64,000 nt of DNA from Acholoe squamosa (Eukaryota > Annelida > Polychaeta > Phyllodocida > Polynoidae), in NCBI GenBank assembly GCA_949317995.1, contig OX439045.1, positions 43,171,693 through 43,235,692 of the forward strand. Direction: 5' to 3'. The translations under genes and the position numbers were made by a program. The notes under the pieces are model-generated. The model saw nothing but the letters and a program-made list of their open reading frames with translations, ran no database searches and had not been told where the DNA came from. Shown here in pieces: positions 39,937-64,000 of this stretch. The stretch's first letter is position 1. Each line of letters starts with the position of its first letter.

Positions 39937-40956
39937 TTATAAGACTTCTTTTTCTGGGCACATGTCTGGGCGAATGACATGTAAGGCCCCATATGCACAC
40001 TTTCTATGATTTGTGACCTTGAGCAACTCACTTCTAAACAAGGAGCCACTCAGCACATACAGTACAAAGTTAATAGCATGATGAGCCATACACAGCTCAT
40101 AGCAGACGGCCATAGCCAAATCCTTCACATGGGTCTGAGGTAAGACTCCTGCAAAATCCAATAAATTCAGGACATTGAAAGGCAAAGTAAAAACCATAAA
40201 GAAAACCCCACTGATAACTAGCATTCTCAACAGACAGGAGGTGTTGGGGCTTGCTGAGACGGAGATGTCACCATGAAGTTTTGCTCTCCTGATGAGTGTG
40301 GTGACTATAATTATATAACATGTAGTTATTATAATGGATGGGACTAGTGAGTACATTGCCACAGCTATAGCTCCAACAGTCATAATATAGATATAGCTTA
40401 AAGGTTGGCAGCTCTCATCAACAACATCATACATGAAGAAAACATGGAAATTAAACAATGGAAATAGAATATAGATAACACTTGTTGCAATCTTTGCTTT
40501 GGAGACAATGCATAGCTGCTTGGCCTTATGTGGTACTGTAACTGCAATGGCTCTCTCTATATTAATGTTTGCCACAAGGATCCAAGAGCTGATCCAGGGG
40601 AGGGTGAGCTTCAGCCACACATATAGTTTACAGGGCCATGTGTAGTGATTATAAGGCTTATATCCTGCTATATCCTGGATGTTGTCTATAGCTAAGGTGC
40701 ACAGAGTAAAAATATCTGTAACTGCCAGCCATCTCAAATACACTGAGATACTGATGAGTGATAATCTGCCCCTGCTTAGGACACAAATCGAGAGGATGTT
40801 TCCAACCAGCCCCAATACAGTCCCCATTAAGGGGATAATATACAATTCATGAACTGTTGGAGGAAAACCGTTTGATCTATCAGTTGATACTTCTGTTTCA
40901 TTACACAGGACCATAGTATAACTTGTGGTATTTGTGAGTCCAGTTGAATTCTCCAT
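39937..40956 (-). CDS. Class A (rhodopsin-like) GPCR, single exon, orphan peptide-receptor type
   Basis: A complete 339-residue seven-transmembrane receptor that would signal through G proteins at the plasma membrane. The N-terminus has three N-glycosylation sites (N3, N9, N19). Landmarks are N53 in TM1 (GNIL), D81 in TM2 (LAVTD), C109 at the start of TM3, E134-R135-A136 in place of DRY, C183 in the second extracellular loop, P259 in TM6 (FTLPF, no CWxP) and N296-F-V-L-Y300 in TM7 in place of NPxxY. The size is normal and the ATG is the first in frame. The layout resembles expanded invertebrate peptide-receptor-like families (FMRFamide or TRH receptor relatives), but the ligand cannot be read from the sequence. 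No introns, so a retroposed origin or a naturally intronless family is possible. Confidence 0.9.
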   Translation of the reverse strand: MENSTGLTNTTSYTMVLCNETEVSTDRSNGFPPTVHELYIIPLMGTVLGLVGNILSICVLSRGRLSLISISVYLRWLAVTDIFTLCTLAIDNIQDIAGYKPYNHYTWPCKLYVWLKLTLPWISSWILVANINIERAIAVTVPHKAKQLCIVSKAKIATSVIYILFPLFNFHVFFMYDVVDESCQPLSYIYIMTVGAIAVAMYSLVPSIIITTCYIIIVTTLIRRAKLHGDISVSASPNTSCLLRMLVISGVFFMVFTLPFNVLNLLDFAGVLPQTHVKDLAMAVCYELCMAHHAINFVLYVLSGSLFRSELLKVTNHRKCAYGALHVIRPDMCPEKEVL

Positions 40957-42789
40957 CTTCTTTGATATGCAGGTTGTTTTCTGGAGTGAACAATTTTAGT
41001 CATCTCATGAATATAGCTTTAAAAGCCCTTTATGGTGGGCGTGATCCATTATTAATCTGCTGTGTGTATTTGTTTATTATTCCTATCCTGCCCTCGCCAA
41101 TTAATATACTAGTTCAGGATGATTATTAAGACCACATCGCTCAAAATGCCAGAGAGAAAGAATTTGAAAAGAAACACCTGAAACTAGATGTTCATACTGT
41201 CATGCACTACCTCTTCCCATACAGGACTCTTGTGAAACTCGCCACAGGTCCATCAGAGTGAAAATTTAGGAGTGCATCTGCCCCATAGGGTTAACATGAT
41301 GCATGGTTGCTGCACTCATTCATTTTGAAAGGGACATAATAGATACTGTATAAAGCATTAAATGAAGCTCACCACAATTTGCTTTCCAGAAGACCTCCAG
41401 ATGACTAATGAAAATTATAAGCCTCCCTCAGCAATGAATACTCTCCAACTGCATTCCTCCTACTGCTCAGCATGACCTAACATATCAGAATAATAGATTT
41501 TTTTTTTGTGACACAACTTGGGAAAACATAACATTATGGGGATTAGTGTCATTTTTGGCCACTAGGTGGCCCATAAGTGCAAAACATACTGTATCCTCAT
41601 ACATTATCAGGGTATGTTAGCCTACTTCTCCTGGTCTGATTTTAATAAGCAACATACCAAAATGATCTCCAAGACCTTCTCGTTCCAATTCAAATAGATT
41701 TATTTTAATGGGTCCATCTATATAGTCTTGAGCAACTGCGACTGGAGTCAGTTAAACATCCCTAAATCAGCAACGGTCCCAGTTCCAGTCAATTGACCTA
41801 CACAGGTACTCTTAGGGATAGAACGATGATATGTTTGTATTGTAAAAGACACCTATGCCTATCATTTTGGATCCATCATTGTTATAATATGTCCTAAAGA
41901 CCTGCTCAAAGTTTCTGAGAAATTACAAGAAAAATGCCAACATATTTCACTTGGTTTTGCCACCTAGATTCTGTAAATAGCACTGAATCCCCATAATGTT
42001 ACCCTTTCTCGTGTTCTGTCACTGATTCTCATATACTGCTTTCTCATAGCACATCCCCCTACCTACCAAACATGCATATATAATGCATATATGCATCTAT
42101 ATAGGGTTACATCTTCTTACTCGATATCCCCCATATCACTTTCTTCTTCATGCCCACCATGCCTGACAGGTGTTGTTTGTTGGAGGAAACCCTTATAGAA
42201 GAGACACAGGTGAGCTAGGACAGGACGTGCTTGAGGAATGTAGGAACTAAACATTGACGTGACATAGGTGAAGTAACCTAGGGGCCCTTGTTTGGGAATG
42301 TCTCCTATGACAACAGCAGTCAAAGTGAAATTAAACATTTAGGATAAGTGCAATGCGAGGTGCATTGTGTGTTTAGTGTGATGTATGAGGTCTGTATGCA
42401 TGTCTTGAAGAGTATAATTTCCCCCTTCATCTACAGCTTACTGTGAGTCGTGCATGTGGCAAATTGATCTAAACTTCACATTTCGATCAGAATTCATTCT
42501 ACCATGTAAGAGAGTGCATTGACTGTACACTGAGGGTGCACATGGAGTGTGTAGGGAGGGAAAGGGAAGGTTGCAAAGAAAGCACAATCCTTCTGTAGTT
42601 ATTTTCTTAGATACGAGAATAATAAAAATAAGACAATAATAGGTTGCAATCGCTTCACAAAATGATAAGTTTTCCTCCAATGCTTCCGTAGGTAGGGCCT
42701 TGCATCATCATATCATTTGGAATTTGATAGGCATAACTCTCGAGTTTCAATTTGATAGCTGGGACATATAATTTATATCGGAGATGTAA
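40957..42789. other. Non-coding region upstream of the GPCR
   Basis: Holds the GPCR promoter on the minus strand, with no TATA box recognised close to the ATG. No other gene is supported. Confidence 0.45.
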
Positions 42790-48070: not shown

Positions 48071-49629
48071 ATTGAATGGCACAAACAATTTGGCTTGGAG
48101 GTTCAGTAACTACTTCTAAACCTGACGATACAGCACAGGTGTACCCTGGTGATTTTGCTCGGTGTTTACATAACATTGATCAGCCATATATGGCGAGGTG
48201 TCTTCAGACAGTCGTTATAGAGGCTAGCTAGCTGGGGGATTTACTAGTCACATAACAGTCTCCTACTAAGGTGCTGGTCGATATAAATAGTTTTAATTTA
48301 TACACACAGTGCACAGTCAATATCACTACTAAGGTAAGTTTAAATCTTCTACTGTGATCGGTTCACCATCAGTTGGCCGACCTTGTCTGGTCAATATAGA
48401 TCTCCAGGTTACAGTACACTGCTCCGCGGGAGATACGGCGATCAGTGCACCCTGGGGAGACACCTGAAAGTGGCTTTGTGGACAGCTGTGTAGGAAAGGC
48501 TCGATGTAGCACTGTGCGGATAGTGATGGCCGTAAGGCGCTTTACGGCTCTCGATTTAGTTGAGTGACATTGGGGCCTCCTATACTTAAGCATTGCAACT
48601 GATACAGCATTTCTGCAATGTACCATGGAACAAAAAAAAAGGTTATTTTTACTGGTGATCTCTGTGATGCAGTGCCGTGATGCAGTCACTTGGTCCAAGG
48701 TTTTACCTAAACGTCCCAGGAACACAGTCTACAGCATACTTACATAAGTGCTTGAAAATCCTCTGTTTCTAATCACTTACTATTTACTCAGTGCATTGTG
48801 GTCAATCCCCTTCCCCGAGTAAACTATATATAACATTCTACCACTGACACACAGACACCATGCACTGAGCTCTGCACTGTCATGTGAATAGCCACTCAAT
48901 CCAAGTTAACTACTTAACCCCTTCACAATACAATGTTTAGCAAAGGCTATGAATTGGGTGCCTATCCCATGAGGTGTCTGAAGGGTCTGAAAATTTTCCG
49001 TCCCCCCTTTTATTCTTTATTGGCATGTGGGCTTTTTTGCTCAAACAGGCCAAAAACCTTTTTGTCTCCCCCCCCCTAAAAGGGGTCTGAAATTTTTTGC
49101 CCCCCCAACCCACCGACCCCCCCCCCGTTGTTAAAAAATTACCACTCCCTTATGTAAGTATGAGTCTACAGATCTACTAGGAGAGGAGCATTGTCAGAGT
49201 TTAGACATGTTACAGTGGCTGATTGCCTCTTCTGACAAACAAAGCAGCGCACTACATTGACCTATGTTGTGTTGGTGGGTGGGTAAGGTGACTATATTAT
49301 ATTCATTTTTATAATCAATACATTCTTGGTTATTCAGGGCTGTGAAATCCTGAAACCGATTTCCTCTGAAGCATATTGTACCCTTCATCTCCCCAGGAAT
49401 TTTAGCCTATATTTTTTACATCAGAGGAAATTGATTAAAATTTTTAAGTAGACACTTCATACCACCTTATATGTATAAAGGGAAGCTAAGCTTAGAACAA
49501 TGAATCAGATGCTTTAATATCTCTACTTTGGCTGACATTAGATCCAACATTGGGTAAAATTCAAAGACTCCCCTGTTTTGTCATCAATAACCAATAATTA
49601 TAATGAACGGGTATAACAGGGTACACTTA
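48071..49629. other. Non-coding region left of the Ty3/gypsy element
   Basis: No gene supported. C-rich runs occur at 49060-49130. This is the presumed insertion target of the large retroelement. Confidence 0.45.
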
Positions 49630-50287
49630 TGTGGGTATTTATTGTATGCTGTATTATGTGTGTATTTATTGTATGCTATGCGAGAGAGTGCTATAGGAGT
49701 CCTGTGTAGGGTTTATGGTAGCTAGAGTTTATGGTAGCTGTGGAATGCTGCAGACGGAGATGGAGTCGACGAGATTTGGTCAGGTAGATTCTGTAGAGAG
49801 AAAGAATACGTGTGAGCCAAATACATGGCGTCTGGAAGGTGTAATGGGTTAGTGAGAGACAGGTGAGGAGTTAGTATTGTGGGAGCAGTTGAGGAGACAA
49901 CACATACTCCTGGAGTAGACGAGGATGAAGCTGTTTAGTATCTAGTATTACACTTCGCCAATGTAAGAACGGATTAAGCAGGATCTCTATGGCACCCATA
50001 CCTCTCTAGAAGCACTGGATTGTTAGAACATGAACTGCTTGTGTGAATAGACTGATGGCGTTGAAGCTGTACAAACCTGAGTGGGATTACCAATCAACTG
50101 TAACTGTGAATAACGAGTGAACAATAAATGGTGACTTGTATCGGCGTCTTGGTGTTGGTTAAAAGAATGGGCTAGGCCAACATCATACCACTAGAGTTAG
50201 TCTTCCCAATACGTGAAATCAGTGGAGCGAGCTGATAATAACTACACAAGTGAGACCACATTAATATACACATAAACACAACCCACA
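49630..50287 (+). repeat. Probable 5' LTR
   Basis: Starts TGTGGGT and ends ACCCACA, an exact 7-bp inverted terminus with TG...CA borders, immediately upstream of gag. An AATAAA at 50123-50128 would end R. The first 21 bases are nearly duplicated at 49657 (TGTATTTATTGTATGCT). No classical TATA box was seen. The 3' LTR needed for proof lies beyond the window. An alternative right border at 50294 would put TGG at 50297 two bases downstream as a primer-site start. Confidence 0.55.
50123..50128 (+). terminator. LTR polyadenylation signal
   Basis: AATAAA in ACAATAAATGG, located where R would end. Confidence 0.5.
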
Positions 50288-50295
50288 CAGCCCAG

Positions 50296-51771
50296 ATGGT
50301 GGAGAATTAGTGGTTGGGCTTATCATCGCCACACACTGACAGTAGTGAGGGTGTGGAAGTCTATACTATCATACCTGCAGCGCACACATTGCCTGGGGAG
50401 GCGGCAGTAGCACATAGTGGTGTAGCAGAGGGACAGGGTGGAAGATCCGGAGTGAGTGAAGCGGAAACTGATCAATCACGTGTCACTCTTAGATCGGATC
50501 ACACACATGTGCATGTACAATTAGGACCCAGGTCACAAGTGGTGCTATTACCTGGAGAGGAGGTGTCTAGAGAGATTGGATTTCCCGTGGCTTGGTCAGG
50601 GGAGGAGCGGGCGTCGTCTCAAAGGGATCCCAAGTCTGGGGGGACGTCTGGCCTACAATTGTCTACGGCGGCTGATTCTGAACCAGCAGGGTCGGTGGTA
50701 GTGGACAATACCTCTGAACCATTCTCAGTATTGGGGGTGGAGAACGAGCATCAGTCATCTGCGGCAGAGTCGGAGACCAGGGCTGATATTTCTAGTGATG
50801 GGCAACAGGCGGCGGTTCAGGAGCACACAGTAAGTGCCGATACAGGGGGACGGCCTGATAATCTCTGCAAGGGGTGGACAACAGAAGACAGATTGGTGAA
50901 TTATAAGTATTTTTCAACGCCCATTACTAGGAGCTCCAGTATTAATTTTAGTAAGGCTACTCCTAGGTGCCTTGAGTTTGAGGGTCCGGCAGATCAGGGG
51001 CGAGTCAGACGCGCATCTGAAGGGGATGTGGTGGATATTGGTGATGTGGATTTGAATTTTGAAGCTATAGCAATGTCATTGGGGTTGATTGAGCCAGTAA
51101 ATGAGGACGAACAGGTGGATGAGAGTGGAACAAAGGATAGTCATGAGAATGAAGGGGACGCACCTTGGGAGAATGATCCAGTAGACGGGGCATCCGCAGA
51201 AGTGGTGGCGTCAGGACGAGACGTGGACATCAGGCAAGGGGCGCTGGGACGAGGATTGGAAATTAGTGGTCAGCAATTGGGTGATTTGCAAGGGGGAATT
51301 ACACCATTATTACCCTCCGGTTTCGTGGTGATTGTTGAAGACGGAAGGAAGTTGAGTGACAAGGACTTGGTGGGTCGGGGTGATGGTGTGCGAGATGATC
51401 AGGATCAGCCAGTCTGTAATACACCAATCAGTACAAATGATGAGATTGGCAGTCGTCTAGGGGAGTCTGTGAGTAAAACAAGGGTGGATGAGGTTATTAC
51501 AGGTCTGCAGAACACTAATATTAGGGTGCGACGAAGCATAGAAAAGGGGAAGGCCATATTTAAACAGGAACAGATATATCGGCAGGCCGTTGATAGGGAG
51601 GAGCTGCTCGCGAGGCAGGAGATAGAACGGGAGCGCGTGGCACGAAGGGAGAGGTTTTTGAGCGATACAGTAAATTGGAGAAAGGTAACTGCGGAAATCC
51701 GCTCAGGCAATAGTACAGGTCGTACTACAGATGAGGGGCATTTAGAGAATGTTCTAAATAGCCATCTTTAG
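50296..51771 (+). pseudogene. gag: gag, N-terminal part
   Basis: An ATG at 50296 opens the frame nine bases after the LTR but meets TAG at 50308. The same frame is then open from 50311 to TAG at 51769, about 486 codons. This is a long acidic, Ser/Gly-rich region without a recognised domain. It ends in a charged helical stretch (residues rich in R, E, Q such as RQEIERERVARRERF) likely to form a coiled coil. It precedes the capsid domain in the same frame, so it would be a matrix-like N-terminal extension of Gag. Such an extension (over 500 residues) is much longer than usual for Ty3/gypsy. An alternative is a spliced start. Confidence 0.6.
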
Positions 51772-53016
51772 ACTGATGTTTCGGGTGACTGGGAGGATTG
51801 GTATGTTAAGAGGGCGGACGAAGAAAGAAGACGACTGAAAGAAAGGGAGGCCCAGGAGGAAGCCGCCGGGGGCTCCGTCGCTGGAGGTGCTAAGCCTGAT
51901 ATACAGAGGAACGATAGTGAAGAGGGCTCATTGGTAGACCTAGGTGAGGAGGGACAAGTAGAAGGGGATATTGCACCTATTGTTGGTTTTGAGGACGACG
52001 ACATGGCGCCTAGTCCGAATGTTAAGCTACCATCCTTCACGGGGGAGCCTGGGGAGGATTATCGGAGATATTTTAAGGAATTGAATGGAATGCAAAAGCT
52101 ATTTGGATGGTCTCCAGATCAGCATCTTGAATATGCGAAGTTGGGGTTGAAGAAGGGGGCATCGAAATGGATGGATGGTATTCCAGAAGGGGAAAAGGAT
52201 ACTTTGGACAAAGTGGTGGCTATAGTGAAGAGGGTTTTTGAGGACAAAAGACCACTGTGGCAGAAACATAGGGATTTGCACTGTCTGAAGCAAGAAAAGG
52301 GACAGTCGGTTTGGGACTTCGCATTGAAAATAAAGGAATATGATGAGTTGGACATTCCTGATGTCATCAAGCTGTCAGTCTTTGTGGGGGGTTTGCTTCC
52401 GCCCATTGATAAGGATCTGATGAAACACAACGCTGATTCTTTTGAGGAGGCTCTCAGACTGGCGTCTTATTGGGAGAATGTGGAAAAAGGGAGGACCTCC
52501 AAAGGCGTGGCGCAGCTACATATGCTCGAGTCTGAGGGGGCTCGGGATGGAGCATGTGGAGAAGATCAGTTTGATCCTAAGGAATATGCTAGGGAACAAA
52601 CTAAAGCGGTGGTGGAGATGTGCACTATGGAATATAGAAGGGGACTCAGAGAGATGGAATATGGACGGGAGAATCAGCAGGGACAATATGCTGGAAGAGG
52701 TGATAATTCACAAGGGCAGTATAAGGCGCAGACGGGCAGAGGGACTGGCATGGGAGCATATGGGCAGAACAGGCAGTTTGGTGCAGGCGGTGGAAGCCGA
52801 GGATGGAATTATCAAGGGGGACGCAGTGGAAATCAGTATAACGCGTCTCAATATTTCAATAACAGGTTTCAGGGACAGAGATACACAGGAGGAAGCAGGC
52901 AAGGCCAACAAGGGGATGATAAGGGTCAGAGAAGAGCACAGGAATATGCTAGGATGATGGGGAGATGCAGGAGGGAGTCAGAAAGGAGGAGGAGCGACTT
53001 ATTGCTTGATTCATGA
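51772..53016 (+). pseudogene. gag: gag, capsid domain and Gly/Arg-rich tail
   Basis: Same frame as the preceding segment after the TAG at 51769. It continues the charged helix and then has a typical retrotransposon capsid (Retrotrans_gag type) from about 52018 to 52500: LPSFTGEPGEDYRRYF, a WMDGIP motif and a helical region ending GLLPPIDKDLM. From about 52670 it turns Gly/Gln/Arg-rich (GRGTGMG, GGGSRGWNYQGG), as in nucleic-acid-binding Gag tails. The frame ends at 53014-53016 before the zinc knuckle, which lies in the +1 frame, so a frame break lies between about 52958 and 53003. Confidence 0.8.
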
Positions 53017-53170
53017 TTCTACCACACATTCTACAGAGGAGTGCACGTTTTTGAAGAAGTACAGGGATCAGTTATCATCTTCTCAGCAGAACAGGGACCA
53101 ACGAGATCAGGGAAATGATGCACGCAGGCCGGGAAACGGGCACAACGGCTCATTCCTACCCCAGAATTAA
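52958..53170 (+). pseudogene. gag: gag, C-terminal zinc knuckle (shifted frame)
   Basis: This frame (+1 relative to capsid) is open from 52958 and ends at TAA 53168-53170. It encodes C-x2-H-x4-H-x4-C (C at 53003 and 53042, H at 53012 and 53027), then EECTFLKKYRDQL. This CHHC pattern with its following helix is known from Gag-like proteins of some Ty3/gypsy lineages, in place of the usual CCHC. It supplies the Gag end that overlaps pol and carries the GGGAAAC heptamer in register. Confidence 0.65.
53131..53137 (+). promoter_or_regulatory. -1 ribosomal frameshift heptamer GGGAAAC
   Basis: In the zinc-knuckle frame the bases read G GGA AAC, the X XXY YYZ register needed for simultaneous slippage. 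The -1 frame is the pol frame and is open from 53120 onward, while the gag frame stops 31 bases later. GGGAAAC is a heptamer used by retroviral gag-pro junctions. Downstream GC-rich sequence may form the stimulatory structure; I could not fold it. Confidence 0.65.
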
Positions 53171-54759
53171 ATTTAATATCAGGGGATGGGTCGGGAAATA
53201 GGGGCTCAAAAGACAAAGCGCCATGGTTGGTTCAGTGTACCATCGATGAGAATACATATAAATGTTTAGTGGACACGGGCGCGTCTGATTGTTTTATAGC
53301 GCGGACAGTTGTAAGTAGTATAAGTGAGAGAGCAATTTGGGACAGGCAACCATCTCAAGTGGGGAAAGTGCGTCTGGGGGACAAGACATCATTACAAGTT
53401 TATGAGACGGTGCGACTACAATGTTTTATGGACGGTGCTTGTATATATTATGATTTTAATGTGGTGGACTCACTGGCCTATGATATTGTGCTGGGACGTA
53501 ATTTTCTCACCGACACAAGGGCACAGATTATAGCTATAGACGGAAAGGTACGTCTCTTTACTGAGGATCCGGTCTCAATTGAAGTAGCAGCGATTTTGGA
53601 CCCATGGGAAGAAAGATTGGTGACGGTGAAAGGATGGGATGTTGCAGCTGAGAGGACCAGGAGAACGGTCTTGCTGAGACCATCTAATTTGGCGGTGATA
53701 GCTGCGGATGGTGCGGTGAACTATGTGGGGAAGAAATGGTATATGAGAATTGTTAATCTCTCAGACAGGCAGGTGTACGTGGATACGACTGAGGTTATAG
53801 CATATGCAGAAGAAATAGATGAACCGGAACTTAATTTGCTGGAGATAATTGACACAGCTGACGTTGGCAGGGATAGAAAGGATGAGGCTCGGGGGATTTT
53901 GGCGCGATATGATGAAGAACAACGAGGGAATGGTCAGGATGCTCGAGGAGGGTCAATACAACGGCAGGATCTTCAGGATAGTGGTAGTGGGAGCGGTGTT
54001 TCTACATTAAGTGAGCAGGAAAGACTGGATAAAATTGAGAAGATTAGGGGCCTTGATTTGGGTGACACTATGATGACGCTGGAGGAGCAGATGGTATTTA
54101 GGGAGATGCTGGTGGTCAACATGGACACTATAGCATTTTCTATGAAGGAGTTGGGTCATTGTTCATTAGCTCCAATGAAAATAAGGGTCGATGAATCCAA
54201 AGGTCCGTGTATGGCGCGACCATACAGGTATTCTCCTCAGAAAATGGACATTATTGATGAACAGGTGAGGGAATTATTGAAGTTGGGAATTATTGAGCCC
54301 AGTGAGAGTGTCTGGAGAAGTCCGTTGGTGGTAGTGCAGAAGAAGGATGGAAAGGCTAGGTTATGCACAGACTATCGCATGCTGAATCTTATTACGGCGG
54401 ATGATACATACCCTATGCCCACAGCCAGAAGCATGTTTTTATATATGGCATACAGAAAACCTATAATTTTTACGGCCATGGATTTGCTCAGTGGGTATCA
54501 TCAGTGCGACTTACATCATGACAGCAGGCAATATTCAGCATTTGAATCACCCTCGGGGGTTTGGCAATGGACGAGGATGCCGTTTGGTATGAAACAGAGC
54601 CCATGGCAGTTTACCAAGATTATGTCATTGGCGCTAGGTGGCTTAATACCACGTACTTGTCTGGCCTACCTGGACGATATCATTATTTTTGACCCGGATG
54701 TGAACAGCCATATTACTAATGTCGGCAGGATATTGGCAGCTTTGGGCAAAGCAGGTTAA
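53137..54759 (+). pseudogene. pol: pol segment 1: protease and reverse transcriptase
   Basis: Enters by -1 shift from gag. The aspartic protease has DTGAS at 53272-53286 and, further on, YDIVLGRNFL as the flap/ALGR-like region. The RT follows with SPLVVVQKKDGKARLCTDYR, then DLLSGYHQ (first catalytic Asp), RMPFGMKQSP, and YLDD at 54667-54678. Between protease and RT lies a linker of about 200 residues. The segment stops at TAA 54757-54759, inside the RT thumb/connection region, in a spot where the frame is otherwise continuous with the next segment. Acts in virus-like particles to process polyproteins and copy RNA to DNA. Confidence 0.85.
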
Positions 54760-56112
54760 ACAGTCAAGCCGGAAAAGTGTGAGTGGGGTAAAGCGGAAAT
54801 CAAGTTTTTGGGGCACATTATTAATGCTGAAGGGGTGCAGACACAGTCTAAAGTGATCAGAAAGGTGCAGGAGTTTGGCAGACCTTATAATGAACATACA
54901 ACTAGATCCTTTCTGGGGCTTTGTAATTATTACAGAAGTTTTATTCCTAACTATGCTGTTTTGTCGATGCCTCTGAATAATTTGTTAAAGATCAAGGTGC
55001 CATTTAAGTGGACGGATGAGTGTGAGGTGTCATTTAAGAAAATACAAACAGCATTAGCAAGCACACCATTATTGGTACATCCAGAGATCGGGGGTCACTT
55101 TTATGTTCTAACGGATGCTTCGGATGGCGCGTGTGGAGCGGCCATCTGTGTGAAGAGGGACGGATTGCTGAGACCAGTGACATATTATGGGTATACATTT
55201 ACCAAGGCTGAAAGAAACTACACTATAACAGAGAAAGAAGGGCTAGCTGTTATACGAGTATTGAAGAAATTTGAGGATATGCTGACGGGAGCCAAGATCA
55301 CGATAATTACAGATCATCAACCATTAATACCTTTGCTTCAGCAAGCCAGTAAGGCTCCATCCAAGAGGTTGACTAGGTGGGGTTTGGCTATGACTGATTT
55401 TGACTATGAGATCAAGTATGAGTCGGGAGCTACTCACTACCTGCCAGATTTTATATCCAGAGTGCCATTGGCAGTGGGACAGGATACACCTGGCGTGGAG
55501 TCGGGGGAATTTGAGCCTGAGGTGGGCTGTGAGCTGCTCATGATGGAACTTGAGGGGGAGGAATTGGATAGGGAAACCTTCATTCAGGAACAGTGGAAGG
55601 ATGGATTCTGCAGGGGAATGATGAGATATTTGGCGGGAGATGAATTGCCGGTGGATGAGGAAAAGGTGCAAGGGATTTTACATAATGCTGATTTCATGGG
55701 TATGAAGGATGGATTATTATGCAAGTATATAAAACCAGCTAGGAAAAGAGGTGGACCTATAGCAGACTTAAACCCAAAAATAGTGGTACCTAAGGCTATG
55801 GTGAGCAGAGTGCTCTATCTTATGCATGATGATATCATGTGCGGGGGACATGTGGGAACAGTGGCGCTGAATACAAAAGTACAGGCTCGGTTTTATTGGA
55901 AAAATATGATGGTGGACATAGCTAGGTATGTGAGGCTATGTGAAAGGTGCGCGTTGAGAAAAAGAGCACCTCACTTTAGGGCCAAGGCAAGATCATGGGA
56001 TACGCCGGATTATCCATGGCAGGTGATACAGACAGATTTTGTTGGGCCGTTACGTAGGTCTAAGGAAGGTTATAAATATATCATGACCTTCATAGATCTT
56101 CTGACGGGATAG
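54760..56112 (+). pseudogene. pol: pol segment 2: RT end, RNase H and integrase N-terminus
   Basis: Same frame as segment 1. It opens with the RT connection (FLGHIINAEG, SFLGLCNYYRSFIP). RNase H follows with LTDASDGACGAA (Asp), TEKEGLAVI (Glu) and TDHQPL (Asp). The integrase zinc domain is H-x7-H near 55823-55850 with CERC at about 55949-55960, then the core begins with QTDFVGPL (first catalytic Asp). A TAG at 56110-56112 interrupts the conserved integrase core; no indel accompanies it. Confidence 0.85.
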
Positions 56113-56940
56113 CCAGAGGCATTTTGTACTAAAGACACGACTGCGCACACGGCAGCTGGGGTGTTTCTACGGGAGATTGTGTGTAGGTACGGCAAGGTGG
56201 AAGTGCTGTGCAGCGACAGAGGGTCCACATATATGGGTCAGGTTTTTCGTGAGGTTACAGCTAGGCTATCCACCAAACAGAGGTTTACGTCATCTAGAAA
56301 TCCGACCGGAAATGCCAGGGTTGAAAGATTGCATAAATCATTAGAGGACACGATAGGATGCTATGTGACCGAGGACCATGAACACTGGCCAGAGCTGTTA
56401 CCTATTGCATTATGGATGGTGCGCTCCAACATTAGTATGAGGACGGGGTTCTCACCATACACATTGCAATTTGGGAGGATTCCGGTGGCCATGTCCTTTG
56501 CTGAAGAAAGGCCAATGCCTAAGGTGCCATCTGAGAGGGATTGGTTTATAAGGACCAATCATAGCATACAGTTATTACAGGAGGCGGCCAATGCTCATAC
56601 TGCTAGGTATGAGGAGCAGCTCAGACGCAGACTGGATGGACGGGCGCGACCTGTATCTTTTATAGAAGGGGAGTGGGTATATTACTATGATCCGAAATGC
56701 GTGGTGAATAATACATCGAAGTTTGCTGGCAGGTACACAGGGCCACATAGGATAATAGAAGTAGTGGGGGATAACAGGGTGAGGTTGAGAGCAGTGAAGA
56801 CGGGCAAAGAGATACCTCACTTAGTAAATGTGAATAAACTAAAGAGAGCATACAAAGGGGAGGGTGAAAATGACAAAGGGGTAGCCAAAGATGAGAGGAT
56901 GGTGGAAGTGGATAAACCGGAAGTGGAATCAGAGGTGTAA
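56113..56940 (+). pseudogene. pol: pol segment 3: integrase core end and GPY/F module
   Basis: Continues the integrase frame: CSDRGSTYMG carries the second catalytic Asp, and GNARVERLHKSLED the Glu of the DDE triad. The C-terminal part has GEWVYYYDP and RYTGPHRI, the GPY/F module that follows integrase in many Ty3/gypsy elements. The frame stops at TAA 56938-56940, yet remains open beyond for another 200 codons, so the natural end of Pol is uncertain. Confidence 0.85.
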
Positions 56941-57549
56941 ATAGAGGACATAGAACGTGAGGACCCTAAAGGGGTAACTGTGGCAGAACATCCTTCATCT
57001 GGTCTGGAGGATAAAGCGCTAGCGGGCGCTGATAGAGAGGTTGAATTGAAAACGTCAGAGGACGACAAAAGTGCATGTGAGATAGAGAGAGGGGTGGCCG
57101 GAGCTGGAACACGCGCACCTATACAGGACACTGATAATGAGATAAATGGACTTGTGCGGCAAGTTAGCCGGAAGAAGCACAGACAGGAAGCTGTGGTCGA
57201 TAATTGGTGTAAGAAGAAAGGGTTACAGGATAGTGATATTGGTAGGGTCGAAAATGACCGGAAACAGGATAATGAAGAGAAAAAGAAGGGTAGAGTGAGA
57301 AATGTTGAAGTGAAGAGGCAGTTGGAAGAAGAGAGCGAGAAAGAAGAGATAGAGAGAAGACGGAGGAGAAAGGAAAGAGAGGATAGAGCTGAGAGAAGGA
57401 GGAGACAGAGGGATAGGAAGGAACAATTGGCTGCGGGGGCCATTTTGAGTGAGGAATCTAGTAGTGAACACATCATTCCAAAGGGACCGATTTCTAGGCA
57501 TCACAGGAGGGGCAGAGAGGAGCTCAGCTCGTCCAGCGATGGAGAGTAG
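56941..57549 (+). pseudogene. Charged tail in the pol frame
   Basis: In frame with integrase after one TAA, open for 202 codons to TAG 57547-57549. No ATG starts it, which argues that it is a Pol extension cut off by the TAA. Composition is extreme: the last 100 residues are dominated by Arg, Lys and Glu (KEEIERRRRRKERED) and end in a Ser-rich acidic tail (ELSSSSDGE). It is probably a long helix. Integrase C-terminal tails can target chromatin (chromodomains in chromoviruses), but no chromodomain is visible here. The 219-codon frame on the opposite strand is a composition shadow. Confidence 0.5.
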
Positions 57550-57737
57550 GGTGAGCGTAGACGGGATACTACAGGATGGGCGATAATCCTGTGGTATGGA
57601 CGTGTGTTGCTATGAGGGGAAGGGGGGGTGATGCAGGTGCCGAAGGGGGAGGGGCCGCCCGGAGGAGCAGGTCAAGCTGACTCATGAAGGTAGACGGAAA
57701 GGAGGACGATACACAAAGAAAAGGGAAAAGTAGGGCA

Positions 57738-57768
57738 AGGTAGGAAAAGAGGGGAGGGGGGGGGGTCA
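57738..57768 (+). promoter_or_regulatory. Internal polypurine tract 1
   Basis: GAAAAGAGGGGAGGGGGGGG lies in a 30-base purine run. In LTR elements the purine tract that primes plus-strand DNA precedes the 3' LTR; an internal one could be a central tract as in lentiviruses. Position only, function not shown. Confidence 0.35.
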
Positions 57769-57803
57769 ATGCAACAGGTATATGCAGGAGGAGATGCATC
57801 AGG

Positions 57804-58460
57804 ATGTGGCAGTGCGCGCACAACGAGGGACGAGATAAGACCTCACAGTCAACAGCAAGTGTTGATGGACGGATGGAAGATAGCTGGTACGAGAGTGTTG
57901 GAGAACAGCAATATCAACAATACTATAATACATGGATGATTCAAGACAACTATTGCCATAGCACTTACAATGAAGGGAGCACAGTGTCTGCAGCAAGTTC
58001 AACAACAACAGAAACAAAAGAAAAAGGATTTGGTGCGACTTCAACGTCAGGCCAGCCAAGCTCAACGCAAGAACCAATACAGGTGGTGGAAGCAGCTCAA
58101 GCCGAGGTCCTGGTAAACAGACAGGGGAATATATGGGACGACATACGTGACATCACTGTGGGACCAAATGAATGGGGCTGGCTGTTAGACGCCACTCTAC
58201 AAAGCACTGGTGGCAGAATTAAGAGAGAAGTCCAGACCAACGAAACAGCAACACAGACTGAACCAACTATATTTTATAGTAAAGATGACGAATTTGTGCT
58301 GGACACGTCAGTAAGGTTGGACGATGTATTGATAGAGGAGTATTACAGTAGACGGCAGATAACATCAAGGCTCTGTCACATCTGCGGTAGAACGACGGCA
58401 ACAGCGGCAGGAGCGGCCAAACACCTGGAACAGGTGCATGGGATAAGACATCTCATATAA
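57804..58460 (+). CDS. Accessory ORF with C-terminal C2H2 zinc finger
   Basis: A true ATG at 57804 opens 218 codons ending at TAA 58458-58460. The first half is low in structure (Gln/Tyr/Ser/Thr-rich). The middle has WDDIRDITVGPNEWGWLLDA. The end has a single zinc finger, C-x2-C-x12-H-x4-H (LCHICGR... HLEQVHG), nucleic-acid-binding in known proteins. Its stop overlaps the next start as TAATG. No counterpart in standard Ty3/gypsy elements comes to mind. A regulatory or RNA-binding role, as for retroviral accessory genes, is inference. Confidence 0.6.
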   Translation: MWQCAHNEGRDKTSQSTASVDGRMEDSWYESVGEQQYQQYYNTWMIQDNYCHSTYNEGSTVSAASSTTTETKEKGFGATSTSGQPSSTQEPIQVVEAAQAEVLVNRQGNIWDDIRDITVGPNEWGWLLDATLQSTGGRIKREVQTNETATQTEPTIFYSKDDEFVLDTSVRLDDVLIEEYYSRRQITSRLCHICGRTTATAAGAAKHLEQVHGIRHLI

Positions 58461-58462
58461 TG
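58458..58462 (+). promoter_or_regulatory. UAAUG stop-start overlap
   Basis: The stop of the C2H2 ORF and the ATG of the next ORF share one base. UAAUG is used for termination-reinitiation in influenza B and in the SART1 retrotransposon, so coupled translation is plausible. Confidence 0.5.
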
Positions 58463-58945
58463 TCCACAAGTGAGGATACAGGGAAGAGACCACCATCTAT
58501 AGTAAAGGCAGGAAGATATAGAGGACAACAGGTAGAAGATGCGCTGGATGCTATATATGGATTTGGGTATTCATTGCCAAAGATATTTAGATACAATGGG
58601 GCGACGCTACAGGACATAGTGATGCAGAAAATATCAAAATTGAAATTGGACATCGCGAGATTGCCAAGGTATTTGAGGGAACAAGTAAACAAACATCACT
58701 TTAAATATGGAGTAGGGAGTGTGACTAATGCATTCTTTTTCTCAAGAAAGTGTAAGAGGCATCGCAAGACTAGTAGAGGGAAACGATGCAGGCAGTGTAG
58801 ACAAAGAGATGAAACTTGGGAAATGTTTAAACTAAAGCAAAAGGGAAAGCATATTACCCAGGGAGTATTAACATCCAGGGCTATAGACAATGAGACGACC
58901 CTGGAGGAGGAGGATGCAACTGAAAACTTTGATAAATATAATTAG
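58460..58945 (+). CDS. Accessory ORF, basic Cys/His cluster
   Basis: Its 161 codons start at the ATG in the UAAUG overlap. Residues 25-80 look folded (VEDALDAIYGFGYSLPKIFRY, then a helical IVMQKISKLKLDIARLP). At about residues 96-111 is CKRHRKTSRGKRCRQC, a C-x2-H-x8-C-x2-C pattern full of Arg/Lys, fitting a small zinc-binding, RNA- or DNA-binding element and a nuclear localisation signal. The C-terminus is acidic. I do not recognise a family. Confidence 0.6.
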   Translation: MSTSEDTGKRPPSIVKAGRYRGQQVEDALDAIYGFGYSLPKIFRYNGATLQDIVMQKISKLKLDIARLPRYLREQVNKHHFKYGVGSVTNAFFFSRKCKRHRKTSRGKRCRQCRQRDETWEMFKLKQKGKHITQGVLTSRAIDNETTLEEEDATENFDKYN

Positions 58946-58987
58946 TAAGGATACGAGTTGATAGGAAAGAAAAGACGGGCTGTACGG

Positions 58988-59377
58988 ATGCAGAATACAA
59001 TACCCGTTAGGGGAACGTTGTGGGAGGTCAAAGAAATGTACAAAATGGCAGGTATTAATATAACGCCACCTACATTTAGAGGAGCACCAGGAGAAAAGAT
59101 AGAAGAATATTTCTACGACATGGATCTAATTAAGAAAATATATGATCTAGGGGAAATGGAATATGTGGCATTGTTATTGTGGGGCATGAAAGGTGAAGTC
59201 AAAACTTGGGTCAGAAAACTACCTGAGGAAAGTAAAAATACTGCATGGAAAATACAACAAATAACCATGGCAGTATTTGCAACCCCAGATGTGTGGAAAG
59301 AATGGGGTATAGGAAAAAAGAGACAGAAAAGATCGTGCGGGAATGATGACGCAGAAACAGAGCCAGCGGGAGAATGA
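58988..59377 (+). CDS. Truncated second capsid-like (CA N-terminal domain) protein
   Basis: The first ATG in the open frame is at 58988, giving 129 codons. Residues from about 20 align without gaps with the start of the element's own Gag capsid: PPTFRGAPGEKIEEYF against LPSFTGEPGEDYRRYF. There is then G-x-K and W at matching spacing, a P-E, and VF before the end (about 21 identities in 83 positions by eye). It stops where the capsid C-terminal half would begin and ends in a basic tail (KKRQKRS). It lies downstream of pol, so it is not part of Gag. Capsid fragments can block particle assembly (Ty1 p22, Fv1), so copy control is one possible role; this is inference. Confidence 0.6.
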   Translation: MQNTIPVRGTLWEVKEMYKMAGINITPPTFRGAPGEKIEEYFYDMDLIKKIYDLGEMEYVALLLWGMKGEVKTWVRKLPEESKNTAWKIQQITMAVFATPDVWKEWGIGKKRQKRSCGNDDAETEPAGE

Positions 59378-59386
59378 ACACGTGCG

Positions 59387-59402
59387 AAAAAGGGGGGGGG
59401 GG
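59387..59402 (+). promoter_or_regulatory. Internal polypurine tract 2
   Basis: GAAAAAGGGGGGGGGGG directly after the capsid-like ORF. It resembles a plus-strand primer tract, but no LTR follows. Confidence 0.35.
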
Positions 59403-59418
59403 CGTTGGATACTGAAAC

Positions 59419-59604
59419 ATGTATATATATATAAATAGCCTGGCTATAGGTGGAAAAGGGGGGGGGGAGAGAGAGAGCAGACATGTGCAGGTAAAGAAAG
59501 AGATAAGATGCAATGGCAAGCAAGAATGTTGGCAGTGTAGGAGTGGAACCCCAGCTATACAGACATTGGCGAGCGATAGACACAGACTGCACTCAAAAGT
59601 TTAA
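59419..59604 (+). CDS. Small ORF with CxxC, doubtful
   Basis: 61 codons from an ATG inside a TATATATATATAAATAG string, itself a TATA-like sequence. Residues near 37-60 read ECWQC... HRLH, a possible C-x2-C...H-x2-H zinc site. It spans polypurine tract 3 as a Gly/Arg-rich segment. Could be chance. Confidence 0.25.
   Translation: MYIYINSLAIGGKGGGERESRHVQVKKEIRCNGKQECWQCRSGTPAIQTLASDRHRLHSKV
59452..59482 (+). promoter_or_regulatory. Internal polypurine tract 3
   Basis: GGAAAAGGGGGGGGGGG followed by GAGAGAGAG, the longest and purest purine run of the element in this window. Confidence 0.35.
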
Positions 59605-60584
59605 CAAGACAGAACAACTAGCATGCTACGCGGACATAACCACAACAGTATAACATAGTCAACAGTTTAGATAAGTTATAAACATGAGTTCTAGTGGAAA
59701 AGCCTGGATCATAGACAACGGAAGGTTCATAGCGGTTGAGATGAATTAATGGAGATCAGTTATAATATACTGAAGGAAAGGAATCATCGCCCACTGTAGA
59801 GAGGGTAGAGATATTAAGTCTCAGATACACCCTACTCTATGGATAAGACTTAACCATCTAACACAGTTTGTAGAAAATTGTAATGGGTCGGATCCATTTA
59901 GGATGCATTCAATATAAAATATATTAGAAATACATACCTGAAGTGAAGATCTTAAGGACTAGTAGGAGTAAAGGCATCATCATCATCAGCAGATGAAGTG
60001 GGAGAAGAACTGAAGATAGTAAATAAAGCAGGTATATGAGAAAAGAGAAAGAAGTGCATCACATACAGTAGGCAACCACTATGGGGCACCTTATAAGTTG
60101 TCTAAGGGTGAATGGAAACACTAGTCGGAACCAGCAGGACCACAGTCGCGCCACACATAGAATGACTCCAGTAACAAGGTCCATAATTAAGAGACCTAAG
60201 TTTAAAGGATATATTTGTCCAGAAGTAAGGCATTCTGTTAAAGAACCAGAGCCTATAATTGTTTAATTATTGAAGAAACCCAGACTCTGAGAAATGAAAT
60301 ACAGTGTCTATAGCTGTAGATATATTCAAAAACTGTGAGTGAAATTCTTTTCTAAGAAGGTATTAGGACACATAAAATTCAGCCATATGGGTGTATTAAT
60401 GAGATCAGTTATATACCTGGGACTGTGAATGTGATCGCCGCAACTCACAAATCAGAGGAGTTCAGCGACTTTATAGAGTCAGCTTATACATATATTTTAA
60501 AAGAAAATATGTGTATAGTATCTTATTACAAGAACGAAGTGAGCGTCTCTAGGAATCAAGGTATGAATCACTAGGGAAATATAC
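59605..60584 (+). other. Region between accessory ORFs and antisense ORF
   Basis: Holds only short frames. One has 21 codons (59684-59749, MSSSGKAWIIDNGRFIAVEMN-like). One has 61 codons (60081-60266) ending KFKGYICPEVRHSVKEPEP. One is a 72-codon frame without ATG (60356-60574) preceded by an acceptor-like TTCTTTTCTAAG. Small exons of spliced accessory mRNAs are possible but unproven. Confidence 0.3.
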
Positions 60585-61859
60585 TTACTTCTGCGTGAGG
60601 GTAGAAGCTGGAGAATTCAAGGTAGGAAGGACAGGACCGCCAGGATTAGAAGACTGAGAGGTTTGTGGTCTGGCAGGAAGCTGGTATGGATGATGTCGCA
60701 CACTGGTAGCTGATGAAGACGTTAGGAGGGATATGATTGTCGATGAGCTGTGAGATAGCCGTGAGGAAGAGGCCATGGTGCTGGAGTGACAGGTTAAAGG
60801 TGAAAAGGGTGGACGTTCAGGTGAAAAAGCCAGAGTACTCCAGAAAGAGGGCGACATCACTGGAAGTAGTGGAAGTGAAGCTGCCGAGATTGAAGTGGAG
60901 GAAGACGAGATAAGCTGACCGGAAGTAGAGGAGGTCAGAACCAGCGCGGGTGTATGCAAGCTGGAAGGCGAAAATCTAGGAGCCGATGTGACGCGGGCTT
61001 CTGCAGCTGGAGCGGTCCGGATGGGAAGTTGAGGCATCAAGAGTGAAGAAGCAGCCGGAAGTGAACCGGAAGTAGTGGTGCTGGTGGAGAAGTGGTGTGA
61101 AGACGCGGTGGAATAAATGGGATTGGAAGATAGAGTTGCTCTGGAAGTCAGTGGTGTAGTAGTGGCTAGCAAAAGTGAGTGGTGGAAGGACGAAACACCG
61201 GAAGCAGCAGGTGTGTGAGAAAGCACGCTGTAATCCACATATGAAGAGTGATGTTGAGGTGGTAGTGGACGAGGAGTTGAAGGAACAGCAAAGGAAGCAG
61301 GAAGTGGATACTGGAAGGAGGTATCCACAACTAGAGGAAGGGCTGTAGAGGAAGTCGTTACTACATCAGAAGTGAAGGTGAGCGCCGCACTTGAGGTAGA
61401 GGTAGCAGGCACTATGGCACTATAGATGGGACGCGCACCCAGGGGAGACATCTGTGTAGGATTCCAGGGTGGCACGAAAGGGGTGGTCAAGTTGACAGAC
61501 GGAGGTGTGATATTGACATAAGCAGGCCGATAGGCAGGCCGATAGGCAGGCGCAGGAATAGGTGGAACAGCGGCAGTTGACTGCAAGCGGTAACTGGGGT
61601 CAGGCATCCCATCCAAGTGAATGACGCGCAGTGTCATGTCCGTCATGTGACAAGCCAAGCGTAGATGATCTCGGATGAGAGTATGTGAAGGCAATGTAGC
61701 ACCTCGCGGTCCAGTATATATTAACATGCACGGAACGACATTAGTGTCAACAGATGACAAGTCTCTACAGCCAACCACGTAGGTAAAACCGGGCTGGAGG
61801 CGATCCACCGGGAGATAGACCAAAGCACCATTGATGGAAACGCTGGTGTAACTAGCCAT
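60585..61859 (-). CDS. Antisense ORF, 424 codons, Ser/Thr/Pro-rich
   Basis: Starts with a well-placed ATG (context AAAATGG) and runs against the retroelement's genes. Residues 1-90 have mixed composition typical of a folded domain (LVYLPVDRLQPGFTYVVGC, then HLRLACHMTDMTLRVIHLDG). The rest is low-complexity Ser/Thr/Pro with a triple YRPA repeat near residues 105-117. It has no similarity I recognise. Its start lies 410 bp from the env ATG on the other strand, so a shared divergent promoter is possible. Antisense genes are known in retroviruses (HTLV-1 HBZ) and in some plant Ty3/gypsy elements. Chance is less likely because the frame is open throughout a damaged element. Confidence 0.55.
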   Translation of the reverse strand: MASYTSVSINGALVYLPVDRLQPGFTYVVGCRDLSSVDTNVVPCMLIYTGPRGATLPSHTLIRDHLRLACHMTDMTLRVIHLDGMPDPSYRLQSTAAVPPIPAPAYRPAYRPAYVNITPPSVNLTTPFVPPWNPTQMSPLGARPIYSAIVPATSTSSAALTFTSDVVTTSSTALPLVVDTSFQYPLPASFAVPSTPRPLPPQHHSSYVDYSVLSHTPAASGVSSFHHSLLLATTTPLTSRATLSSNPIYSTASSHHFSTSTTTSGSLPAASSLLMPQLPIRTAPAAEARVTSAPRFSPSSLHTPALVLTSSTSGQLISSSSTSISAASLPLLPVMSPSFWSTLAFSPERPPFSPLTCHSSTMASSSRLSHSSSTIISLLTSSSATSVRHHPYQLPARPQTSQSSNPGGPVLPTLNSPASTLTQK

Positions 61860-62269
61860 TTTGCAGTGCGAACGAGAGGGAAGTCAAGCATCGACTGAGA
61901 ATTTAATTCTAGGTATCTAACCAAGGGGATGGGAAATTGAAATAAGAAGAAAACAAAATATAGTGAAAACTATAGTAAAAAAAAAATTGAGGGCACATTA
62001 GGAGGAGTCGCTGAAACAAAGACTCCAATCCAATAAATTGGTGTTATCAGATGGAAACGACGCACAGATAGACAGGAAGGGAAGGCGCACGTGTTCAGGT
62101 TGACGGGAAAATATATACAAGGAGGGGTAAAAAGGCCATGAACTGGTGAACTATCTGACACGATAGGGCTTATTAAGTGTTCAAGACCAATAAAAACTTC
62201 CAGGAACGATCAGTTAGGAGCCGTAGTAACCCAACTCGAACTGTAACCAGAAGCCATAATAAGAAGAAA
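61860..62269. promoter_or_regulatory. Divergent spacer between antisense ORF and env
   Basis: 410 bp between the two opposed ATGs, with A-rich stretches and no ORF. On the minus strand ATTCTCAGTCG about 35 bp before the ATG resembles an initiator. On the plus strand AACTGTAACCAG before env could be a splice acceptor for an env mRNA. Confidence 0.3.
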
Positions 62270-63829
62270 ATGGCATGGCTAACTATACTATGTGTCTTAT
62301 GTTCCTTGTGGGGTGTGGTAGATGCTGGAAGGCACACTTTCGAGACTTTAGAGAGAGCCGAATTGGGTGTCATTTTGCAACCTGGCAGACGCATTTCTAC
62401 GGCTGAGCACAATCATGTGTCGCAAGTGTTTGTGTTAGGGATACCAGATAGATTACCAGAACCGGAAATGGAAAGTATTTATGAACAATGTGTGAAAAAT
62501 ATGCAGGTTATGTGTGATATTCAACATCACAACAGAACATTATTATTTGAAGATACCTGTGACAATATCAAACAGAAAGAGGAATGGTTGAATCAAATTA
62601 TTAAAAAACTGATACAAGCCCGAGAAGAGGAAGTGGAAAAGCTAATGGAAAACATACCTGAACAACAACAAGTCAAAAGATCTAAGAGAGCCGGTATACC
62701 AGGTCTGAATATTATAGGAGAGTTGTCGTACTATATTTTTGGCACTGGGAGAGCTGATGATGTAGCCAGAAATGAAAAAGATATTCAATTACTGAAGACA
62801 TCATATTATAAGATGCGTGATGTTATTAAAACATTGGCCACAAGTGCTAGCAATGGCTTGGAGGAAGTCATGGCGGAAGTGGGAGAGTTGGCGGATAGAC
62901 AGTTACAGTTGTATGAAATGGCCAAGATATCATTAAAGAGACGGAAGTTGCTGGAAAGAACTCAAACTATGCACACTGTGGCATTATATGAACTATCTAT
63001 TGTATACAACCATGAAAGCCTGCTGACAAGGGTCAAATGGGGGTATATTATACACTTATTAAATGAACTCATTGAGATAAAGGATATGGCAGCTGAGGTA
63101 AGATTGGTATCACGAAGAAAACTATCATCAAAATTGGTCACTAGAGAAGATTTGAAGGAAGCTATAGTCAACACTGAAGTATATTTGAAGGCTACATACC
63201 CACGATTTAGGGTTGCTTTTACTGATCCCGAATATTACTATGTGGTACGAGTATATCAGCACCAAGGTCGTGTGAAGATGCAGATACGGATTCCTGTGGT
63301 GTCAGAGGAACACATATTCTGTGTGTACTCTGTAAAGGTGTTTCCGGTGCCAGTACGTCTGGCCAATAAAGAAGCTGACGGGACGAGAATAGAGGGATTG
63401 CCATCAGAAGTAGCCATATCTAAGAATGGGCGATATTATATATCGGAGCCGGTGGTAAATTGGGCGTGTTGCCATGGCAACTCAATAGCAGTATGCCCAG
63501 ATATTCCACACATGAGGAAAATAGCTGAACGAGGGTGCATGGCGGCACTGATACGAAATGACAAAACGGCCATAGCAGAAACATGTGAGATCAGCTATAT
63601 AGTTCAACCAAGCTTTCCTTCATTTGCGATAGCATTGGGAAAGGGTCGTACTTTGGTATCGGGGCCCGACATACAAGGTCAGTTGATGTGTCAATCGAGC
63701 CCACCTGTTAAGGTGAACATGCATCATTACACCATACTGAACATTGGGTGTGACTGCGCATTCATGACTGCCGGGGCGTGGATGCCTTACAGCTTGGCAG
63801 GATGTGGTCATGTGAACATGGAAAACTAA
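62270..63829 (+). pseudogene. env: env, baculovirus-F/errantivirus-like class I fusion protein, 3' end broken
   Basis: The first true ATG is at 62270 (AAAATGG); the frame upstream to 62177 lacks ATG. Residues 1-19 are a signal peptide (AWLTILCVLCSLWGVVDA). RSKR at 137-140 is a furin site. It is followed by a Gly-rich hydrophobic segment and FGTG near 157-160, the arrangement of F-protein and gypsy-type Env fusion peptides. A long helical region and a Cys-rich domain follow (WACCHGN, AVCP, GCDC). No membrane anchor is present before the stop at 63829. The +1 frame is open from about 63826 to the window end, with an NVT glycosylation site, so a frame break rather than a natural end is likely. 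A product of this type would act at the membrane; the copy as written is truncated. Confidence 0.75.
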
Positions 63830-64000
63830 TGTGACTTTTGTAAATAATGACTTATTACAAATGAATAGTGTTAAGAAATTGACATGGATAAAGGCCGTAC
63901 TAAATGGTGAAACTGTAGAGGTACTGCAGGATGAAGTGTTGCCAAAGTTAGTGAAGACCAAAATGAAACACAGAGCTAGAATACAACAGTCACCAGCAGC
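63830..64000 (+). pseudogene. Probable env continuation in the +1 frame, runs off the window
   Basis: The frame shifted by one base relative to env is open from about 63826 to 64000 (57 codons, no stop). It starts with an N-glycosylation sequon and continues with ordinary soluble-domain composition. The membrane anchor and 3' LTR would lie further right. Confidence 0.45.

Follow-up and report, generated by a model that had tools for sequence, protein, structure and literature searches.

The genome of the polychaete Acholoe squamosa contains a Ty3/gypsy provirus of 17,030 bp that carries a set of accessory genes between integrase and env. The window analyzed here is a 64,000-nucleotide stretch of contig OX439045.1 (C11:43171693-43235692) from an assembly searched over 1,481 Mb in 63 contigs. 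The provirus begins at window position 49574 and ends beyond the window at C11:43238295. Three accessory open reading frames (ORFs) on the sense strand, ORFx, ORFy and ORFz, and one gene on the opposite strand, AS, together occupy about 2.7 kb; they recur in other copies of the element and are under purifying selection. We favor, with some reserve, the reading that this endogenous Ty3/gypsy provirus is young, exists in many copies and follows the plan of a complex retrovirus, in which gag, pol and env are accompanied by at least four selected accessory genes. Positions below refer to the window, and features lie on the forward strand unless stated otherwise.

The accessory block in other copies

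The integrase frame ends at 56937 and the env frame starts at 62177, leaving a block of 5.24 kb. Its first 0.6 kb is the tail of Pol, and about 3.3 of the 5.2 kb are coding. An earlier reading made from the letters of the window alone (the sequence-only reading) had described some 5 kb of coding-looking DNA here; the interval was right, while one of the ORFs belongs to Pol and about 1.2 kb is devoid of coding signal.

A search with positions 50000-50600 returned at least 70 matching rows and at least 32 places besides the window's own with internal sequence. The block region was fetched for 19 of the 32 listed other places, and its sequence is present in all 19 at about 88-98% identity; in L010 and L017 the placement of the pieces limits coverage to the part beyond about 60.0 and 60.2 kb, respectively. 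L019 is rearranged, with large inserts or losses, and smaller ones occur in L012, L013, L018 and L026, with one in L025 just before the block. Gene order in L049, a member of another subfamily, is as in the window.

The genes recur genome-wide. AS was scored at 99 places of 1029 candidates (78-100% identity; 89 stop-free), ORFy at 150 of 348 (93-100% identity; 148 stop-free) and ORFx at 150 of 268 (88-100% identity). Most ORFx rows hold one TAA, which in L049, the one such copy read, stands at query codon 16, ahead of the ATG at 57873. Among the matches listed, ORFy lies upstream of AS, on the opposite strand, at 63 of the 99 places, with a spacing of 1554-1715 bp in 62 cases and 2255 bp in one; a further 20 have ORFx, and 16 have neither. 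A frame open over 1114 codons encloses one copy of ORFy (C5:61759837-61760319), and another, open over 774 codons, encloses one copy of ORFx (C3:18933602-18934252); both are possible fusions.

Selection on the sense-strand accessory genes

ORFx, ORFy, ORFz and AS evolve under purifying selection. The changes that separate the window from 18 other copies (the rearranged L019 was left out) were compared with the outcome when those changes are placed at random, giving a ratio of nonsynonymous to synonymous changes (N/S) relative to neutrality. A first run dropped copies covering less than 60% of an ORF; a second counted each distinct change once. The ratios in frame for distinct changes are 0.33 for ORFx, 0.26 for ORFy, 0.28 for ORFz and 0.39 for AS, with 0.18 for the start of env. 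In the first run the shifted frames of ORFx give 1.3-3.3, and the other five frames over AS give 1.2-2.2 except for one sense frame. Across the six frames of the stretch 59400-60550 the distinct changes give 0.87-1.15, and the phase of variable sites changes frame at the ORF borders. The claim of the sequence-only reading that several extra ORFs and an antisense gene are present stands, because the block occurs in 19 of 19 copies and its ORFs are under purifying selection; no copy lacking the block was seen among those fetched.

ORFx (57873-58457) encodes an acidic protein of 195 amino acids (isoelectric point 4.7) with, by eye, a C2H2-like finger near its C-terminal end. Its ATG is kept in 15 of 15 copies and its stop in 16 of 16. 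The stop overlaps the start of ORFy in the pentamer TAATG (58458-58462), kept in all 17 other copies with letters there and also in L049. Cases of stop-restart translation at overlapping stop and start codons are known, and the arrangement suggests that ORFy may be translated in this way. ORFy (58460-58942; 161 amino acids) is basic, with an isoelectric point of 9.9 and an Arg/Lys-rich stretch that includes a CxxC motif.

ORFz (59036-59374; about 113 amino acids) resembles a duplicated capsid-like piece of Gag. It matches the element's own Gag at 28% over 74 amino acids with an E-value of 2e-10 (5e-10 with phmmer), and all other pairs among the 13 protein pieces of the element gave no match. 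Judged by this similarity, ORFz is a copied piece of the element's Gag.

An ORF of 61 codons at 60081-60266 is likely a further gene, less firmly so than the other four. It is intact in all 18 copies, the window included, with 14 nonsynonymous and 13 synonymous changes (p about 0.01, uncorrected, for one of three small ORFs tried). It starts with MGHLISC, which we take to resemble a myristoylation motif. A 21-codon ORF at 59684 was rejected for lack of a selection signal, and a candidate exon at 60353-60571 was rejected as coding, with a ratio of 1.85.

The antisense gene

AS (60585-61859, reverse strand) encodes 424 amino acids, of which the N-terminal part is better conserved and the remainder rich in Ser, Thr and Pro; these three residues make up 43% of the protein. 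For distinct changes, N/S is 0.27 over the first 120 codons and 0.47 over the rest. From stop to stop the opening spans 432 codons, compared with a maximum of 334 in 2000 dinucleotide shuffles, and is thus beyond chance. In L011 and L024 AS is 18-19% diverged, whereas the start of env is 4-6% diverged; stop-making changes number zero against about five expected, and the insertions and deletions are multiples of three. This divergence reflects either fast evolution or the swap of a cassette between lineages. The 150-bp windows flanking AS in these two copies are 3-5% diverged, and L011 climbs to 11-13% at 62050-62350.

AS and env are divergently oriented, and the gap between their starts (61860-62176) is a candidate promoter. 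It contains a TATA-like element, AAAATATATA, at 62108-62117 that is kept in 17 of 17 covering copies. Downstream of AS the antisense strand carries ATTAAA in 18 of 18 copies, and no AATAAA occurs on that strand within 57500-62400. A TATA box at 59428 was rejected, as several copies do not keep it.

A conserved stretch downstream of AS

Between ORFz and AS lies a conserved, mostly non-coding stretch of about 1.2 kb (59375-60585), downstream of AS and free of a frame signal. In L049 the interval 59400-60548 is about 6% diverged, compared with synonymous sites at about 13% in ORFy, 16% in ORFz, 23% in ORFx and 29% in AS, and a constraint unrelated to protein coding therefore probably acts on it; export of the RNA, its packaging or the ends of transcripts may be involved. 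Positions 60260-60590 fold better than shuffled sequences (z-score -3.0). Of the 101 predicted pairs, 71 are invariant, 16 are broken in some copies and one shows a two-sided change, so that no clear covariation is seen. The fold of 59640-60080 is not special compared with shuffles (z-score -1.4), and no Rfam family reaches its gathering score within 49500-64000.

Structure of the provirus

The 5' long terminal repeat (LTR; 49574-50294) and the 3' LTR (C11:43237575-43238295, 1.9-2.6 kb past the end of the window) are both 721 bp long, and their positions define the length of 17,030 bp. The repeats, of which the 5' copy reads TG...CA, differ from each other at four sites. The sequence-only reading had put the start at 49630, which is 56 bp inside the 5' LTR; its estimate of at least 14.4 kb holds, and the 3' LTR that it sought to the right is found there. 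CCCC on both outer flanks agrees, together with the TG...CA ends, with the 4-6-bp target duplication of Ty3/gypsy elements, although the duplication is uncertain because it sits inside a run of C. Assignment to the Troyka superfamily was rejected: Troyka is defined by CG...CG ends and a 3-bp duplication in the part of its description available (PMC12440569), ends and duplication that differ from those seen here. In the 5' leader, at 50326, the window copy is about 66 bp shorter than 30 of the 32 places listed elsewhere that include internal sequence.

An open frame at 50314-51768 shares its frame with gag and is probably a long N-terminal part of Gag; its N/S is 0.47-0.71 of neutral in six of seven copies and 0.97 in L002. 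The capsid-like part of gag and its Gly/Arg-rich tail (51931-53013) have no Pfam or Protein Data Bank (PDB) match. The piece read shows no CCHC knuckle in the tail; damage to this copy may have cut that piece.

The pol region (53227-56937), found in pieces that are interrupted in the window copy, encodes protease, reverse transcriptase, RNase H and integrase in this order by Pfam, with protease matches below the Pfam cut-off. Ty3 is the top match of both Pol pieces among PDB structures (E-values 5.6e-41 and 9.2e-29) and ranks above retroviral reverse transcriptase in each, so that the Ty3/gypsy assignment already made in the sequence-only reading is borne out by comparison with PDB structures. 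For the second piece, chain 8r0s ('Enzymatic polyprotein') is nearly equal to Ty3 (2.0e-28 versus 9.2e-29). A charged C-terminal Pol tail (56941-57546) follows, with an N/S ratio of 0.54; it was rejected as a separate extra gene, as the integrase frame continues into it in four of four covering copies.

The env frame runs from 62177 to the window end at 64000 and on to L009:1205 in the piece just past it, with a likely start at the ATG at 62270. By eye, env starts like a signal peptide, has RSKR ahead of a hydrophobic, Gly-rich stretch and contains membrane helices. Past the window it extends through a second membrane helix into a long tail (two membrane helices in all beyond the window). The stretch that begins with the second helix, about 240 codons, is under purifying selection in the comparison with L010 (6 nonsynonymous and 21 synonymous changes); L017 was left out beyond the first helix, where it is past a truncation. 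The tail (L009:470-1205) has about 215 residues, with RQLPEVP and YVDL near its end, presumably an SH3-ligand-like and a tyrosine-motif-like sequence. No Pfam envelope family matches env up to an E-value limit of 10, at which HMMER filters drop most matches above 0.1; the only match is to the unrelated DUF5760, below the cut-off. A PDB search gave no match either. The baculovirus-F-like envelope proposed in the sequence-only reading thus finds no counterpart in Pfam or PDB, and the layout seen by eye is compatible with such a protein.

The window copy is not intact, because in-frame stops interrupt gag-pol and env shifts frame near the end of the window; such damage varies between copies. Elsewhere in the window, a single open frame at 39937-40992 on the reverse strand encodes a rhodopsin-type receptor whose nearest solved relatives are the ghrelin, nociceptin and somatostatin receptors.

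Relation to known elements

In having selected accessory genes besides gag, pol and env, the element corresponds to complex retroviruses, by analogy and not by descent. Vertebrate retroviruses such as human T-cell leukemia virus (HTLV) are known to have complex gene sets that include an antisense regulatory gene. Like HBZ of HTLV-1 and APH-2 of HTLV-2, AS is a protein gene opposite the gag-pol-env strand. Genes of the HBZ type carry a bZIP domain, whereas AS matches no Pfam family up to an E-value of 0.5 and hence has neither bZIP nor TRP28 (PF04195). AS also starts inside the element, whereas the antisense promoter of HTLV is located in the 3' LTR according to the available portion of one review (PMC7264820).

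In the parts available of two accounts (PMC11963269, PMC7264820), the antisense genes of the plant elements Retand and Grande are placed after pol and before the 3' LTR, and in Grande the antisense promoter lies upstream of the gene. AS occupies the same place as the antisense gene of Retand, Grande and RIRE2, as far as those excerpts describe it. In contrast to these elements, the present one, from an animal host, has env between AS and the 3' LTR and three or four sense accessory ORFs; the TRP28 domain of Retand is missing from AS.

Cer1 of C. elegans is of the Ty3/gypsy type. Its accessory protein CERV is produced from a spliced mRNA and needed for export of genomic RNA, and is the one accessory protein named in the part of the source available (PMC10309623). 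Cer1 is thus a similar case of an invertebrate LTR element with an accessory protein, compared here by description only, whereas the present element has at least four such genes.

Errantiviruses (Drosophila gypsy and its kin) combine a Ty3/gypsy pol with env and produce 4-bp target duplications. The present element shares this combination of pol and env and, if its flanking CCCC is such a repeat, the 4-bp duplication; it differs in lacking a Pfam envelope match, and is presumably longer, with an added accessory module. LTR elements of bdelloid rotifers are another case of animal elements with extra ORFs; the captured ORF3 types are env-like, esterase and exonuclease, and an antisense gene is not mentioned in the portion of their description available (PMC5408684).

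The statement in the sequence-only reading that no standard Ty3/gypsy element carries such genes was therefore too strong, given the antisense genes of Retand and Grande and CERV of Cer1 as partially available accounts describe them. Antisense genes are known from plant Ty3/gypsy elements and extra ORFs from Cer1 and rotifers. In the open literature searched we found no animal element that unites an antisense gene and env with three or more accessory ORFs on the sense strand.

Proposed roles and alternative explanations

Sense transcripts from the 5' LTR would yield Gag-Pol, with splicing or an internal promoter providing the accessory pair and Env. ORFx and ORFy could be made from one mRNA through stop-restart at TAATG. 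The acidic finger protein ORFx may be nuclear and act on transcription, and the Arg-rich ORFy may be nuclear and, in the manner of Rev or CERV, handle the element's RNA. ORFz, as a Gag-derived capsid piece, could tune assembly or block other particles. An AS mRNA would start in the AS-env gap, at a promoter of its own, and read toward gag-pol, with AS acting as a regulatory protein. These roles for ORFy in RNA handling and for ORFx and AS in regulation are drawn by analogy with CERV of Cer1, the plant antisense genes and HTLV. Only tentatively do we propose that an animal Ty3/gypsy lineage independently evolved full complex-retrovirus control, in which coupled nuclear ORFx and ORFy, an interfering protein derived from Gag, a small acylated protein and an antisense regulator with its own promoter would govern a switch between silence and infection.

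Several observations weigh against reading the block as a set of functional accessory genes. Some copies have damaged ORFx or ORFz frames, and only 12 of 19 have an AS without stops or frame-breaking insertions or deletions. The accessory ORFs have no Pfam match, apart from one sub-threshold match of ORFy (E-value 0.08). Structure models predicted from single sequences are poor (mean predicted local distance difference test scores 42.8 and 53.5), and a fold search found nothing below an E-value of 0.38. For ORFy and AS no relatives were found outside this genome in the viral contigs searched. The p values are optimistic because the tests pool related copies. In the first run the first frame of the stretch 59400-60550 gave 0.71-1.09, the value of 0.71 coming from pooled copies. 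One sense frame opposite AS also gives 0.51-0.58; it shares its third positions with AS and contains many stops.

Insertion of an unrelated transposon or host segment into the window copy, as the source of the block, can practically be dismissed: nothing was found in its favor, block sequence is present in every one of the 19 other copies fetched, and ORFx, ORFy and AS recur across the genome, with fixed spacing at 62 of the 99 AS places. It is scarcely more credible that the antisense ORF is a by-product of base composition. The sense strand is purine-skewed over 50-64 kb, so that fewer stops fall on the opposite strand, and the protein has the high share of Ser, Thr and Pro noted above; but no shuffle reaches the length of AS, the lowest ratio is in the AS frame with the other five at 0.51-2.2, and 89 of 99 scored places are stop-free. 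The antisense RNA rather than its protein might instead matter, pairing with sense RNA to limit the element and leaving the open frame secondary. AS does lie opposite sense transcripts, and the available part of PMC7264820 discusses antisense-RNA control of LTR elements in plants and of micropia. We consider this explanation improbable in view of an N/S of 0.31-0.39 in AS next to non-coding DNA without a frame signal, and of the missing stop-making changes and in-phase insertions and deletions in the two most diverged copies.

An alternative that accepts the proteins is that ORFy, ORFx and AS form a counter-defense kit that suppresses small-RNA or transcriptional silencing by the host and does not control the element's own expression. 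The many copies and the recent insertion indicated by the LTRs, the basic, Arg-rich nature of ORFy, and the divergence of AS relative to the start of env in L011 and L024 are in keeping with it; fast-evolving antagonists often show such excess divergence. We regard this kit as rather unlikely, since selection on AS and ORFx is overall purifying, not diversifying, and Pfam provides no sequence link to any known suppressor.

If the reading as a provirus with a complex-retrovirus plan is correct, four or five selected accessory genes, one of them antisense and one a copy of Gag, would represent an independent origin of retroviral complexity. The element would then let one pose the question of which functions an infectious retroelement of any kind has to add, and annotation limited to gag, pol and env can miss genes that are under selection.

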